From Planktothrix serta PCC 8927 (GTDB taxonomy: Bacteria; Cyanobacteriota; Cyanobacteriia; Cyanobacteriales; Microcoleaceae), in NCBI RefSeq assembly GCF_900010725.2, contig NZ_LR734877.1, positions 227,959-291,958 of the forward strand: 64,000 nt of DNA, written 5' to 3'. Under the pieces are notes generated by a model. That model saw only the letters and a list, made by a program, of their open reading frames with translations. It had not been told where the DNA came from and searched no databases. Positions 5,646 to 10,890 of the stretch are shown in pieces (the stretch's first letter is position 1; the number at the start of each line of letters is the position of its first letter). The translations under genes were made by a program, and so were the position numbers.

Positions 5646-5723
5646 TGTCCGTTAAATTAAGACCTATTCACAAGGAAGCATAATCCTTAATTGTGCCTCA
5701 CTTGAGAGAAAACTGCTAGACCC

Positions 5724-5830
5724 GAAAAAAAACCGGGTTTCTGTAATAACTTTGCTGCTTAATAGAAATCTTGTTGAAAAAATCCAATTTCTGAGAACCT
5801 TTAAACATACTGAGAAACCTAGTTTCTGAG
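5724..5830. repeat. palindromic AAACCGGGTTT repeat and degenerate copies
   Basis: A copy of the dispersed palindrome AAACCGGGTTTCT is at 5731-5743. Degenerate copies follow (AGAAATCTTG about 5764, CCAATTTCTGAGAA about 5783, GAGAAACCTAGTTTCTGAG about 5812-5830). The same family recurs at 8190, 27901, 28875, 35224 and 46998. Confidence 0.7.
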
Positions 5831-5903
5831 TTTCAGGTGAGGGTTGAACACAAATATAGATGACTACGCTATAATATTAAATCAAACCCTTAAAATAATA
5901 GCC

Positions 5904-6605
5904 ATGAATAATCACCCTGACAATGGCTCCCCAGACAACTTGGATTCTCTATTTAATAATTTAATCCAATCTTTAGAAATTGACTCCCATCAACAACAAA
6001 TTCCTGAACAGACACACAATATTATGTCTGTCCCTGATTTCCATAGCCACGACCCCCATCATCTTCATCTTGATGTCTCTAACTTCTCTGGAACTGGAGA
6101 ATATTATCAAGGTCTACACCCATCTTTTATCTCTGACCTGAACTTTCAAACCCCAGAATTACATCCTAATGGGACGGAGTTAGAACAGTTTAATCCTTAT
6201 CAACACCCCGAACAAACCGACTATTCAACCCCTGATCAATCCTATCACAATTCGGGAATAGAAGATCACTCGCAACAAATGTCTACCTTTTCCGCAATGC
6301 AAACACTTAATTATGTAGAAAAGGGAGATTCTAATAGCGTTCATATTTATCCAGATGGTGATGTTTATTGGGATAGTGGCGGACAAGCCGGACATATTGA
6401 TGGGCAAAAATTTTATAACAATGGCAACCATTATATGGGGCATTTAGGTGCTGATATGAAGGTCTATGATGCTCATGATAAATGTATTGGTTGGGTTGAT
6501 ACAAAAGGTCATGCTTATACCTTAGATGGGGCGGTTTTTGCTGAAGGAAAAACACCGATTTGGGCGGCGACGGTGTTGGTTTTTAATACCTCTAGTCCAG
6601 GTTGA
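5904..6605 (+). CDS. Asp/His/Asn-rich hypothetical protein
   Basis: 233 residues from ATG 5904 (MNNHPDNGS); an in-frame TTG at 5844 would add 20 residues and is less likely. The first 140 residues are polar, rich in Asn, Gln, His, Asp and Pro, and look disordered. The last 85 hold short beta-rich repeats with Tyr/Gly/Asp (HIYPDGDVYWDSGG, GQKFYNNGNHYMGHLG, VYDAHDKCIGWVDTKGH, YTLDG), which resemble small beta-flower or beta-propeller modules. No signal peptide. It lies 112 bases upstream of the DGR target gene in the same direction, separated by a perfect GC palindrome, so cotranscription is possible. Function unknown. Confidence 0.6.
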   Translation: MNNHPDNGSPDNLDSLFNNLIQSLEIDSHQQQIPEQTHNIMSVPDFHSHDPHHLHLDVSNFSGTGEYYQGLHPSFISDLNFQTPELHPNGTELEQFNPYQHPEQTDYSTPDQSYHNSGIEDHSQQMSTFSAMQTLNYVEKGDSNSVHIYPDGDVYWDSGGQAGHIDGQKFYNNGNHYMGHLGADMKVYDAHDKCIGWVDTKGHAYTLDGAVFAEGKTPIWAATVLVFNTSSPG

Positions 6606-6621
6606 TTTCAACAAAAACTCT

Positions 6622-6649
6622 GTAGGGGCGAGGCGCGCCTCGCCCCTAC
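6622..6649. repeat. perfect 28-bp GC-rich palindrome
   Basis: GTAGGGGCGAGGCG is followed directly by its exact reverse complement, a 14-bp inverted repeat with no spacer. It belongs to a family of GTAGGGGCG...CGCCCCTAC intergenic elements seen again near 9724, 17234, 19470, 28805 and 29157. It could act as a transcription attenuator between the two flanking genes. Confidence 0.8.
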
Positions 6650-6717
6650 GCCCGAAATTGATTTCAGGGGTTGATTATAGAGATCAACCTTATAATTTAT
6701 TAACCGGAGATGCGAAA

Positions 6718-9633
6718 ATGGAACCTTGGAAATGGTTGAATATGGGTTTAGAAGTGGTATCTCGATTTATGCTTCAAAAAACCCTAGTAGATGGCCAAAA
6801 GAGAAATACGGATATCGTTGTAGCTAACAATGCTGCGATGGAGGAAAAACGGCAACAAATTCAGTTAGCACAGTATAAATTACAATGTGTACAAGTTGCG
6901 AATAATGCTGTAATAGAGGAAAAAAAACAGGAAATTCAATTAGAACAAATTAAATTACAATATATCCAAAATCGAGAGAATCGAGAATTTCAAGCCCAAC
7001 AAACTGAACTCAATCATCAACGACAAAAGGAACTCCAAGAATATATCCAAAGCGTTAATTTAGCCATCCATAAAAGCAATATTGAGTTTCAACGCTGGCG
7101 TTTTGAACAGGAAAAAAGCCTACAATCAGAATTAGCAACTTATGGTCGAGAAACCCAATTAATTATCGCCGAATATCAACGAGAAACCGCGATAAAAGTT
7201 GCCCATAACCAAGCAGAAGTTCAGAAAATTTTTGCTAATTGGCCGTTAACATTGCCTCCGGCGCAAATTTTAGAATCCTACAATAATAATTTAATTCCCC
7301 TGCGAGTTTTTATTGCGCCGCCTAAAGTTCAGTTTGAAAAGTTTGCCACCACGCCGCAAAATTTCCCTGATATTGAATTAACTATAAATCAAAAAATGCG
7401 CGATTTTTTTGATCAGTATTCTCAACAGGGAAGACCGATAGAATTTTTAGCAGGTGCTTGGGAAAGTAAACGCTTTCATAGCGAAGCCAGTATTAAAGCC
7501 TTATTCGGGATGCTAAAATCAGAACCGACATTAATATTAGAGTCGGAATTTGATGGAGATTATCTCAATTTCCGAGTCGCCTATTGGACAATAGGACAAC
7601 TTAACTATTCCTATCAAACGATTATTTCTCAACTGTCCTATCGGGATATTTTATATGATTCTGCTAAAACTCGCGCCCGGAAATGGAAAGTTACAAAAGA
7701 CAAACTATTAGCACTGGGAAAAACCCAAGCTGATATTGATAAACGGGGCGGGGATAATGAAATTAATCTCAAAATTTGGGAGGAAGAACAAAGTTTACGA
7801 GAGGAGGGAATAGAGGATGACGAGTTAGAAATTCACTATAAAATTAATAGCAAGCATTTTGAAGATTTGTACCAGTTTTTAATCACCTGTCATTTTCTGG
7901 TCGCAGGTTGGATAGCTGACACTCATCATTTATTTCTCCATGATTTCACGCCTTTATTACCGCAACTCCTCCCAGATTTAACTCAGAATATCCCCGAAGG
8001 AGAAGTTGCAGATTCAGTCATAGGGATGGTCATTTCTGGCTATGAACAAATCTACAAAATCCTAGAAACAGAAAGTTCTCATCGTCTCCCTGAATTAATC
8101 CTAGAATTAGCCCAGGGTTTAGTCAATTTACCCAATAAATCTTGGGCTAAAAATCAATTAATTAATTCTGTAAAATCTTGGTTGAAGTTAAGAAACCCGG
8201 TTTCTCAAAGAAACCGGGTTTCTGAAGTTTCTGAATTATGGGATAGAGTTAATTCTGTCGTAATAGCTAAGGATTTAGACTATATTGAAAAAATCAATAA
8301 TTTGCTAGAATCCTTGGGAGAAACTCACCGGGTTAATATTGTTCAAGCCTGTTATCAACGGGGACAAAACCATTGTCAACAGGGAGAATATACGACCGCC
8401 ATTGATGATTTTACCCAAGTTTTGTTACTCGAACCTAATTCTCCCGATGCCAATTATAATCGCGGATTAGCCTATAGTAAATTAGGGGAATATCAAGCCG
8501 CCATCGAAGATTATAACCAAACCTTGCGACTGAATCCGAATTATGTCGAGGCTTACAATAATCGCGCTAATGCCTATTATAAATTAGGGCAATATGAAAA
8601 AGCGATCGCCGATTACAATTCCTGTCTCGCCCTTAATCCTAATTTACCCGATGTCGCCCATAATCGGGATGTTGCTCAAGGAGTTTGGGATGAAAAACGA
8701 CGTCAGCAACAAACGGAAGTAGAAACAAAACGCCGTCAGGAGGAAGAAAGAAAGCGTCAGGAAGAAGCAGAAAAACGCCGTCAGCAAAAGGAATTTGAGT
8801 TTGATGTCATTACTGTTAACGCCCAAGGAAAGGAAACCAAACGAGAACGCCGTCGGGCTGAATTTTTTAAACAAGATTTAGGCAATAATATCAGTTTAGA
8901 AATGGTATCCATTCCTGGGGGAACTTTTATGATGGGTGCGGCTCAAAATGAAGCCCATGCTAGTAGCGACGAATATCCCCAACATCCCGTTAATATTGCT
9001 GCATTTTCTATGGCAAAATATCCCATTACTCAAGCTCAATGGGAAGCCGTACTTGCATTACCTAAAATAAAAATAGACTTAAAGCGCGACCCCTCTGATT
9101 TTAAAGGCGCAAACCGACCTGTTGATAGTGTAACTTGGCATGAAGCGCAGGAATTCTGTCAGCGACTTTCCCAAAAAACAGGAAAAACCTATCGTTTACC
9201 TTCTGAGGCGGAATGGGAATACGCCTGTCGTGCTCAAACTACAAGTCCTTTCCATTTTGGCGAAACCATTACAGCCGATTTAGCTAATTATGAGGCAAGT
9301 AATACTTACGGCAATGGGCCAAAAGGAACCTATCGTCAACAAACCACCGATGTCGGTAGTTTCCCTCCAAATGCCTTTGGATTATACGATATGCACGGCA
9401 ACGTTTGGGAATGGTGCGCTGACCCTTGGCATGAAAATTATACTGGTGCGCCAGATGATGGTAGCGTTTGGGAGTCGGGCGGAAATACTCAATACCGGGT
9501 GATTCGCGGTGGTTCGTGGTTCAACTATCCCTGGGATTGTCGCAGTGCCAATCGTGGCAGGTACGTGCCGGGCGGTCGGTACTGGGACTACGGTTTTCGT
9601 GTTGTTTCCCTCCCGCCTGCGTGGACTCTTTAG
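6718..9633 (+). CDS. coiled-coil/TPR/FGE-sulfatase (CLec-fold) protein; DGR target
   Basis: 971 residues from ATG 6718 (MEPWKWLNMG), preceded by a GGAGA-like site; the frame is open further upstream but that part crosses the palindrome at 6622. Order: helical coiled coil rich in Gln/Glu (about 20-180); an unrecognised conserved-looking middle (about 180-540); three TPRs (about 545-645, e.g. DANYNRGLAYSKLGEYQAAIEDY); a Lys/Arg/Glu-rich helix; an FGE-sulfatase domain (about 723-971: MVSIPGGTFMMG, YRLPSEAEWEYACRA, GNVWEWCADPW, YRVIRGGSW). The catalytic Cys pair of true formylglycine-generating enzymes is not evident, so it is more likely a ligand-binding C-type-lectin fold. The end (CRSANR...YGFRVV) is a DGR variable region. 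No signal peptide. Inferred role: a variable recognition module on an intracellular scaffold. A palindromic repeat lies inside the coding sequence at 8190-8224. Confidence 0.88.
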   Translation: MEPWKWLNMGLEVVSRFMLQKTLVDGQKRNTDIVVANNAAMEEKRQQIQLAQYKLQCVQVANNAVIEEKKQEIQLEQIKLQYIQNRENREFQAQQTELNHQRQKELQEYIQSVNLAIHKSNIEFQRWRFEQEKSLQSELATYGRETQLIIAEYQRETAIKVAHNQAEVQKIFANWPLTLPPAQILESYNNNLIPLRVFIAPPKVQFEKFATTPQNFPDIELTINQKMRDFFDQYSQQGRPIEFLAGAWESKRFHSEASIKALFGMLKSEPTLILESEFDGDYLNFRVAYWTIGQLNYSYQTIISQLSYRDILYDSAKTRARKWKVTKDKLLALGKTQADIDKRGGDNEINLKIWEEEQSLREEGIEDDELEIHYKINSKHFEDLYQFLITCHFLVAGWIADTHHLFLHDFTPLLPQLLPDLTQNIPEGEVADSVIGMVISGYEQIYKILETESSHRLPELILELAQGLVNLPNKSWAKNQLINSVKSWLKLRNPVSQRNRVSEVSELWDRVNSVVIAKDLDYIEKINNLLESLGETHRVNIVQACYQRGQNHCQQGEYTTAIDDFTQVLLLEPNSPDANYNRGLAYSKLGEYQAAIEDYNQTLRLNPNYVEAYNNRANAYYKLGQYEKAIADYNSCLALNPNLPDVAHNRDVAQGVWDEKRRQQQTEVETKRRQEEERKRQEEAEKRRQQKEFEFDVITVNAQGKETKRERRRAEFFKQDLGNNISLEMVSIPGGTFMMGAAQNEAHASSDEYPQHPVNIAAFSMAKYPITQAQWEAVLALPKIKIDLKRDPSDFKGANRPVDSVTWHEAQEFCQRLSQKTGKTYRLPSEAEWEYACRAQTTSPFHFGETITADLANYEASNTYGNGPKGTYRQQTTDVGSFPPNAFGLYDMHGNVWEWCADPWHENYTGAPDDGSVWESGGNTQYRVIRGGSWFNYPWDCRSANRGRYVPGGRYWDYGFRVVSLPPAWTL
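8190..8224. repeat. double palindromic repeat inside a coding sequence
   Basis: AAGAAACCCGGTTTCT and AAAGAAACCGGGTTTCT stand back to back within the DGR target gene and are translated in frame as RNPVSQRNRVSE. The same palindrome is otherwise intergenic in this window, so an in-frame insertion into a linker between the middle region and the TPRs is likely. Confidence 0.75.
9508..9633 (+). other. DGR variable region (VR) of the FGE/CLec domain
   Basis: The last 42 codons begin GGSW and contain CRSANR and GFRVV, the frame of DGR variable regions in FGE-type targets. Where such proteins carry template-encoded Asn (AAC/AAT), this copy has F, Y, W, D, G, Y, V, G, G, Y, W, D and Y, all reachable by changing the two adenines of an AAY codon. 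Only 12 of 93 bases from 9508 to 9600 are A, far below the rest of the gene. The 3' end from about 9592 (GGTTTTCGTGTTGTTTCCC) is where the invariant initiation site would lie. The template repeat is not in this window, so this rests on pattern only. Confidence 0.8.
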
Positions 9634-9697
9634 CCCTTTGTCCTTTAGCCCTTTAGCCCTTTACCCTTCTTTCTTCTTTTCCCTTCTTCCCTTTTCG

Positions 9698-9732
9698 CGC
9701 GTCAGCGCGTTTAAAAATTTTTTTTTTCAGGG
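9698..9732 (+). other. hairpin just downstream of the DGR variable region
   Basis: CGCGC-GTCA-GCGCG forms a 5-bp GC stem with a four-base loop, and a run of T follows. DGR target genes often carry a short GC hairpin with a tetraloop downstream of the initiation-of-mutagenic-homing site, which this resembles in place and form. It would equally well serve as an intrinsic terminator for the target gene, because of the T tract at about 9718-9727. Confidence 0.55.
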
Positions 9733-9790
9733 GACGGGTTTTGTTAGAAAATTGTGTCAACCCACAATAATTTTAATAAACCCGCCCTCT
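9726..9790. repeat. GC-rich inverted repeat (GACGGGTTTT...AAACCCGCCC)
   Basis: GACGGGTTTTGTTAG and, further on, TAATAAACCCGCCC form imperfect arms of the dispersed GGGCGGGTT...AACCCGCCC element also found near 17234 and 28805. It separates the DGR target from the VapBC-like pair and may mark where DNA was inserted. Confidence 0.5.
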
Positions 9791-9813
9791 TGCTAAAATT
9801 CAGAGGAAAACCA

Positions 9814-10005
9814 ATGATTATGAAAGGTTATATCAAAGGAAAAAGCATTATTCTCATAGATTGCTTGCCCGAAAATGTCCAAGAGGGTGATCAAGTAGAG
9901 GTGTCTGTTTCCGTTATCCCCAAACCCAAATATTCCTTTCCGACTTTTCAGTTAGGAATTAAAGAAGATTACCTCAACCGAGAAAAAATTTATGAGTCTG
10001 ATTAA
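9814..10005 (+). CDS. VapB-like antitoxin
   Basis: 63 residues from ATG 9814, preceded by AGAGGAAA five bases upstream; an in-frame TTG at 9754 would lie in the repeat and is unlikely. The N-terminus (MKGYIKGKSIILIDCLPENVQEGDQVEVSV) is the small beta-rich pattern of AbrB-like or similar antitoxins that precede PIN toxins in cyanobacteria, and the tail is charged (GIKEDYLNREKIYESD). It overlaps the start of the PIN gene by 14 bases, the arrangement of an operon with translational coupling. Antitoxin function is inferred from partner and size. Confidence 0.7.
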   Translation: MIMKGYIKGKSIILIDCLPENVQEGDQVEVSVSVIPKPKYSFPTFQLGIKEDYLNREKIYESD

Positions 10006-10462
10006 GATATTTTTTGACACAAATGTTTTGGTCTACGCTCACGATGAATCTGCCAATTACCATACAGAATCGGCAGAATTACTGCAAATGACTTTAGAGG
10101 AAAAAGTTCAAGGTATCATCGCTGAACAAAACATCATTGAACTGTATAGAATTCTGACTAACCCTAGTGCTATGAAAGGTAATGCCTTAAACCCATCAAC
10201 CGCTAGAGATTTAATTGCTGGAACCTACCTAACGGGTACTTTGGAAATCCTTTATCCTAATCATTCTACCCTAGACAAAGTATTGGAATTAGCCGTCAAT
10301 GGTAATTTTATTTCAGCCAGAATTTTTGATATTAGACTAGCGGCTTTGATTTTAGATGCGGGCATTGATTTTTTTGCCACTTATAATATTAGTGATTTTC
10401 AGGGAATCCCTGGTTTAAACCCATTGAGACCACCACAAATTTTGACAGCTATACCAGATTAG
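9992..10462 (+). CDS. vapC: PIN-domain ribonuclease toxin (VapC-like)
   Basis: 156 residues, ATG start within the end of the antitoxin gene. FFDTNVLVYAHDES carries the first PIN acidic residue, IIELYRILT the Glu, and a later DIRLAALILDAGIDFFATYN segment the remaining Asp positions plus the ATYNISDF end typical of VapC. PIN proteins cut RNA (tRNA or rRNA) when freed from their antitoxin. This pair stands between the DGR target and its Avd protein, which is unusual, and the avd start codon follows after only three bases. All expected acidic residues seem to be present, so it should be intact. Confidence 0.88.
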   Translation: MSLIKIFFDTNVLVYAHDESANYHTESAELLQMTLEEKVQGIIAEQNIIELYRILTNPSAMKGNALNPSTARDLIAGTYLTGTLEILYPNHSTLDKVLELAVNGNFISARIFDIRLAALILDAGIDFFATYNISDFQGIPGLNPLRPPQILTAIPD

Positions 10463-10465
10463 ACA

Positions 10466-10861
10466 ATGACATCCTCCTATTTAGCTGAAAAAATTAACAA
10501 AATGAGTGAATTACCGATTATCCAGAAAACCTATGATTTAATTAAATGGTATGTACCCATATTAAATCGCCTACCGCGAGATCATAAATTTACATTAGGA
10601 GATAGAATCATTACCGGACTTTATGACCTTCTCGAAGGATTAATTTTAGCCCGTTATTCCCCAAATAAACTAAACCAATTAGAATTATTGAATGGCAAAT
10701 TAGATATTCTGCGCCATCAAACCAGAATATTATTAGATTTCGAGTTAATTAAAACTGAACGCTATGAGTATATCGCAAAATTGATTAATGAAATTGGCAC
10801 AGAGTTAGGAGGATGGATTAAACAACAACGAAAAAACACCGAAAAGTTGCCTAATCTATAA
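10466..10861 (+). CDS. avd: bAvd-family DGR accessory variability determinant
   Basis: 131 residues; ATG 10466, with an alternative ATG at 10502 (MSELPIIQK). The segment [18 protein letters not shown] followed by [15 protein letters not shown] is the diagnostic N-terminus of bAvd proteins, and the rest is long amphipathic helices with many Lys/Arg, fitting the four-helix-bundle pentamer. Avd binds the DGR reverse transcriptase and template RNA and is needed for mutagenic homing. Here it is 3 bases after the PIN gene and about 830 bases after the variable region, but no reverse transcriptase or template repeat follows: the next gene is rpsJ. The related S23/four-helix family (23S rRNA intervening-sequence proteins) is the alternative. 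Confidence 0.87.
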
Positions 10862-10890
10862 TTTTTATCGTGTGAGGATCAAAATAGAGA

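Follow-up and report, generated by a model that had tools for sequence, protein, structure and literature searches.

The window considered here is the whole 64,000-nucleotide stretch of contig NZ_LR734877.1 (positions 227,959 to 291,958) from Planktothrix serta PCC 8927, and our subject within it is an incomplete diversity-generating retroelement (DGR): a target gene ending in a variable region (VR), followed by an avd gene, with neither a reverse transcriptase (RT) gene nor a template repeat (TR) beside them. The assembly of the window strain (G000) is a draft of 6.27 Mb in 155 contigs with a completeness of 99.91%. It was compared within a set of 10 Planktothrix genomes (its own included), one genome per species, and within a wider set of 59 genomes; the near-complete Planktothrix subset comprises nine genomes, with G005 (73% complete) excluded. 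Two relatives recur throughout, namely Planktothrix sp. PCC 11201 (G004) and G002, a congener (not sister) of the window strain. The features on which the argument depends are given below.

approx. 5684 to 10889, strand not set: DGR island in the spacer from the LON-domain gene to rpsJ, present in G000 and G002
6718 to 9633, plus strand: DGR target from ORF and Pfam matches, with an N-terminal coiled-coil-like part, TPRs and a C-terminal FGE/CLec domain
9505 to 9609, plus strand: variable region, 105 nt aligned to the PCC 11201 TR
10466 to 10861, plus strand: avd, intact across the whole family model, with a likely start at 10502 when relatives are compared
10834 to 10867, plus strand: deletion scar of 34 nt, 91% identical to L053 7830-7863 (G002) and fused to the avd 3' end

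The target open reading frame (ORF) encodes 971 amino acids, or 1035 if counted from the first ATG at 6526. The protein matches the FGE-sulfatase family (PF03781, 197.9 bits), TPRs are also present, and the N-terminal part appears coiled-coil-like when the sequence is read by eye. The target additionally matches TvpA (2y3c, 81 bits), which by sequence only assigns it to a CLec/FGE fold with a C-terminal VR. The preliminary description had recognized a DGR-type VR from the motifs GGSW, CRSANR and GFRVV. These motifs are general to the FGE fold, as PvdO, TvpA and FGE chains align across that part, and therefore they are by themselves no proof of a DGR; the VR does stand, on the base-level comparison described below. 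Formylglycine-generating enzymes possess an active-site cysteine pair after the GGS motif. When aligned to the FGE structure 6s07, the window protein has Asn at the first of these positions and Cys at the second, and thus does not carry both active-site cysteines of that enzyme. The CLec/FGE fold makes a role in recognition plausible. The target frame is open, and its dN/dS relative to G002 is approximately 0.11 (0.0232/0.202).

The Avd protein scored 140.8 bits against NF033474 (equivalog cut-off 80) over model positions 1-104 of 104 and 70.3 bits against PF22296 (cut-off 40), matched the PHROG family 'Avd protein of DGR', and gave profile matches to the solved Avd structures 4dwl and 8ub7. 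A bAvd-family gene about 830 bases after the target, with str genes beyond it, had been proposed initially, and each of these points was borne out: the measured gap is 832 bp, and Pfam analysis of the neighbour genes identified ribosomal S10, EF-Tu and EF-G beyond avd on the opposite strand. The avd frame is likewise open, with a dN/dS of approximately 0.11 against G002. Avd proteins above the cut-off occur in 14 of the 59 genomes (own included). Thirteen of these genomes also encode a DGR RT, which in G015, G026 and G030 is fragmented or interrupted by stops; the window genome is the exception. In the named avd loci (L141-L220; the best 80 of 184, mostly cyanobacterial), an RT match lies within 720 nt of avd in 78, and the remaining two loci hit contig ends 766 and 2 nt past avd. 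On the reading favoured below, the avd of the window is a stranded accessory gene, which may be retained for another role or may merely not yet have been lost.

Comparison of the window VR with the TR of PCC 11201 revealed changes at 16 of 28 adenines and at 2 of 77 other bases (Fisher 1.1e-9). On this base-level comparison with a real TR, and on the complete cassette that the congener G002 has at the same site, we judge the VR to be genuine; FGE motifs alone would not show it. Cassettes of avd, RT and TR are present in both PCC 11201 and G002. The two non-adenine differences (columns 36 and 81) are best read as template differences, since both are common to all three VRs of the window genome and the column-81 base is also present in the G002 TR. 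The genome holds five FGE genes, three of which bear the adenine signature: the window target and two remote genes, C13 (16/28 adenines, 3/77 others) and C58, whose VR is treated below. The window VR was fixed in advance and not picked by a mismatch scan; the 17 type-I VRs came from a scan allowing up to 22 non-A mismatches and the type-II VRs from one allowing up to 14, so that the p-values of both types are biased. One could suppose that there is no DGR relic here at all, and that an FGE-family gene chances to look VR-like beside a four-helix protein, as the generality of the protein motifs within the fold would allow. The A-specific base pattern, the Avd equivalog score, the scar and the intact syntenic cassette described below all contradict this supposition, and we consider it exceedingly improbable.

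The absence of an RT and a TR from the 64 kb, noted at the outset, was confirmed: an RVT_1 profile search of the window gave zero matches, and a degenerate pattern (up to 3 mismatches) found a single VR/TR-like site with no second one (0 in 100 shuffles). In the window strain's own assembly, the degenerate template pattern (up to 3 mismatches) matched only the three VRs, and an adenine-rich TR pattern that is present in G002 and G004 had no match. RVT_1 matched five times in this genome; four matches fall in frames of 542-605 aa, which by length only are group-II-intron-like, and one is AbiP2/DRT-type. In a DGR-RT protein search across the 10 Planktothrix genomes, G002, G004 and G009 were the only ones with close matches (73-100% identity); the best match in the window genome was 32% identical, to a 542-aa RT. 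Since the assembly shows neither a DGR RT nor a TR, the earlier suggestion that an RT elsewhere in the genome diversifies the target in trans is not supported.

G002 has the same island in the same spacer, flanked by the LON-domain gene and rpsJ, with a complete cassette in it. The gene order there is target, small ORFs (HicB-like and ParE-like among them), avd, RT, TR, an RNA resembling the Rfam family RT-14, a Uma2-family gene and rpsJ, with the following positions.

L053 6155-6505: avd of G002
L053 6502-7560: RT of G002, 352 aa, with LPIGNLTSQ and YVDD
L053 7578-7708: TR of G002
L053 7705-7853: RT-14-like RNA of G002

Window positions 10502-10836 align to G002 6155-6489 with 94% identity. 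The scar's 34 nt consist of the final 24 nt covered by the RT-14 match and the 10 nt that come after it. The avd end and the RNA tail thus adjoin in the window and lie apart in G002, from which we conclude that approximately 1.34 kb is missing relative to G002, extending from the last avd codons through the last bases of the RT-14 region. The final ~7 codons of the window avd derive from the deletion junction, and the C-terminal tail of its Avd is encoded by the remnant of the RNA region. The opposite polarity, in which the window state is ancestral and G002 acquired RT and TR secondarily between avd and rpsJ, would suit the patchiness of the island, which is missing from this spacer in the seven other Planktothrix genomes fetched (G001 has a different insert of ~1.5 kb there). 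It is very improbable in view of the RT-14-like tail that the window retains fused to avd and of the RT standing beside avd in nearly all named loci (the 78 of 80 above). Synonymous divergence (dS) between G000 and G002 is 0.20-0.22 for island genes and 0.375-0.57 for flanking core genes; the island genes being closer than the core genes, the cassette has probably moved or recombined.

These results point to a DGR that was disarmed, a reading to which we assign a probability of about 0.92: a complete cassette diversified the target, and a later deletion removed the RT, the TR and most of the RNA. In the proposed course of events, a cassette of the order target, avd, RT, TR and RT-14-like RNA would once have stood in the spacer before rpsJ, and mutagenic homing from it would have written the VR of the window target. 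The VRs of C13 and C58 would have been written by the same or a closely related template; that a related template wrote them before the loss is evident for C13 and less so for C58. A deletion of ~1.34 kb would then have joined the avd 3' end to the 3' end of the RT-14-like RNA, taking with it the RT, the TR and nearly all of the RNA, and the three VRs, because RT and template are absent, would have become fixed and would have evolved as ordinary coding sequence. VR diversity is probably no longer renewable; diversification has presumably come to a halt, and the fixed proteins presumably retain a binding or sensing function. The initial description of an orphan DGR, deleted and frozen, accordingly holds for the deletion, which the scar and the syntenic intact cassette document; the frozen state is a deduction from gene content.

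Several points weigh against this interpretation. In a 155-contig draft a missing contig, or a lost plasmid, with RT and TR stays conceivable, and cassettes of this type do occur on cyanobacterial plasmids. That the VR is static today is deduced from the gene content of one assembly. The C58 VR fits the signature more weakly (9/28 adenines vs 7/77 others, p 0.0064), and the purifying selection on target and avd is not datable to after the loss. An alternative is that diversification of the target continues in trans, from an RT and TR on another replicon, a missed plasmid or an element present in part of the population. Remote homing occurs in the genus (from the G002 TR to its target C11, described below), cyanobacterial plasmids carry such cassettes, and the window VR has stayed almost free of changes at non-A positions, all of which would agree with continued activity. 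With no DGR RT or TR in an assembly of such completeness, we hold this alternative to be improbable and retain the disarmed cassette.

A conserved RNA directly follows the TR in G002, G004 and G009. By blastn it was detected in 67 of the 80 named loci, including L141, L145 and L167, which match at 100% and are apparently the query sources themselves. Of the 80 loci, 60 have it downstream of the RT at a distance of up to 700 nt, 3 have it before avd and 4 have it further downstream. Covariation analysis of 30 sequences found double-sided compensatory changes in 29 of 42 predicted pairs. Scores against Rfam RF02921 (RT-14, gathering score 48.1) were 43.8 bits for L053, 46.5 for L145 and 49.4 for L195; searched by E-value, one of nine sources (L195) exceeded the gathering score and L145 fell below it, L053 lay below it as well, and a search run at the gathering threshold gave 0 of 10 sources. 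With the gathering score passed in one locus only, confidence in the assignment to the RT-14 family is moderate; blastn conservation and covariation are independent of that assignment. The full RNA follows the TR in G002, whereas the window retains 34 nt from the end of the region. By analogy with the spacer RNA of the Bordetella phage BPP-1 DGR (PMC12875486), we propose that this RNA probably forms the 3' portion of the template RNA, and its position after the RT in most named loci suggests the same role as a likely job for the RT-14 family. The BPP-1 system also resembles the Planktothrix cassettes in having a related Avd (4dwl, 8ub7), the same VR-TR-RT logic and a structured spacer RNA 3' of the TR, and differs from them in that TR and spacer lie between avd and RT, whereas in Planktothrix the TR and RT-14-like RNA come after the RT. 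A search of the open-licence literature for DGR together with RT-14 found nothing.

Loss of the machinery is not confined to the window strain. Relatives were paired by a single-gene fusA tree, used for that purpose only, in which 4 of 7 inner branches are well supported; the pairs G001/G009 and G002/G003 are supported, and the pairing G000/G006 is without support. G009 carries a second cassette lineage with its own TR. Compared with this close relative, G001 lacks 1,595 bp from mid-avd to past the RNA, and on the far side of the break the two are 97% identical across 7.2 kb. The G001 scar is independent of that in the window; G001 retains three VRs of the G009 lineage (14-16/26 adenines, 2-6/81 others). 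VRs in the absence of a DGR RT were also found in G003, G006, G007 and G008, amounting to six of the nine near-complete Planktothrix genomes. Sixteen VRs were examined in those six genomes. The frame is open in 15 cases, with lengths of 298-1035 aa; G008 C160 is one of these, its VR lying in the first FGE module of a frame that has two. The VR of G008 C100 is degenerate. Loss is documented by scars in G000 and G001 only, and in G003, G006, G007 and G008 arrival of targets without the machinery, instead of loss, is also possible. The two independent scars with their intact relatives (G000/G002 and G001/G009) provide matched pairs within one genus, which permit asking whether function is kept after freezing, whether selection or neutral change accounts for the loss, and for how long a VR remains intact once it is no longer maintained.

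Compared with the TR of G004, that of G002 carries a deletion of 4 nt. The same deletion occurs in the VR of the remote G002 target C11 (L135 from 7329), where it causes a frameshift; 7 of 29 adenines are changed in this VR (all A to G) and none of the 92 other bases. The deletion is absent from two other VRs of G002. C11 is best read as an apparently recent case of homing in trans from the damaged template, and as such provides natural evidence of trans homing and a concrete cost of a DGR. It suggests that a template indel turns a DGR into a target-breaker, favouring its deletion. As a tentative extension, which we regard as possible and on balance unlikely, Planktothrix would repeatedly delete the DGR machinery and keep the diversified receptors (lock-in), with template poisoning as one driver: homing from a frameshifted TR would break targets, deletion of RT and TR would thereby be favoured, and the existing variants would become fixed, heritable receptors.

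Among known systems, the closest are cyanobacterial DGRs. PMC7517822 (Vallota-Eastman et al. 2020) already proposes removal of diversification components after diversification, and reports for Nostoc PCC 7120 a paralog (all3226) that retains remnant TR-VR homology and has no RT close to it, as well as a lone RT in Anabaena sp. The cyanobacterial DGRs described there resemble the present one in their CLec targets with C-terminal VRs, shared RT clade and dispersed remote targets. The Nostoc genome still has two DGRs, whereas no RT or TR was found in the window assembly; the present case further differs in a removed segment defined by a scar, an intact avd and the recurrence of RT-less VRs in the genus. 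The DGRs of PB-PSB1 (PMC10907252) also have targets with FGE domains, in a genome described as holding several DGRs, whereas the window genome has none complete. PMC7159879, PMC8144416, PMC8867640 and PMC8143477 were consulted as further background. In the open-licence literature searched, Planktothrix combined with diversity-generating retroelement gave a match on Nodularia only, and no breakpoint of a DGR removal was found.

Further features of the island are as follows.

5844 to 6605, plus strand: ORF that accompanies the target in several relatives, with a weak Bflower_2 match (21.3 bits, below the cut-off of 38)
9754 to 10005, plus strand: small ORF upstream of the PIN gene, with no family match and antitoxin-like by position only
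9992 to 10462, plus strand: PIN-domain protein, VapC-like

The last two occupy the gap between target and avd. In PADLOC the C58 target matched LmuB weakly, and the window target, the PIN protein, Avd and the C13 target had no match. The AbiP2/DRT-type RT of the window genome (C56; L005 1060-2586, 508 aa, PADLOC 684.8 bits) was rejected as a DGR RT and is a candidate anti-phage RT unrelated to the DGR. For a 372-aa RVT_1 frame of G006 (C4), the DGR-RT search of the fetched locus was negative.

Among the VRs, that of the window and that of G006 C254 (L122) are identical at all 9 adenine columns altered in both, and each of their 9 differences has A on one side. The comparison covered 15 of the 17 VRs, and a pair of this kind arose in 42 of 2000 column shuffles; the agreement suggests that the two VRs are related by descent or were written from the same altered template. 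G009, which has an RT and its own TR, also contains a VR of the other template lineage (L123, C1:3035262), and the TR pattern of that lineage was not found in G009.

Five avd genes are cut at nearly one place, about residues 65-74 of the window Avd, which makes this a possible breakpoint hotspot.

L064 8809-8982: cut avd of G001, where the context is a deletion
L065 8309-8500: cut avd of G008, adjoined by a short repeat
L066 8313-8471: cut avd of G027
L067 95-271: cut avd of G058
L255 2501-2695: cut avd on an Anabaena cylindrica plasmid, adjoined by an ISL3 transposase gene

Directly after the C13 target of the window genome lies a 19-residue avd remnant (L131 8051-8107) that resembles the G001/G008 type and is the vestige of another defunct DGR in this genome. 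Second avd 5' fragments downstream of the intact cassettes of G002 (L053 8692-8736) and G004 (L052 7522-7632) are likewise traces of a former tandem cassette.

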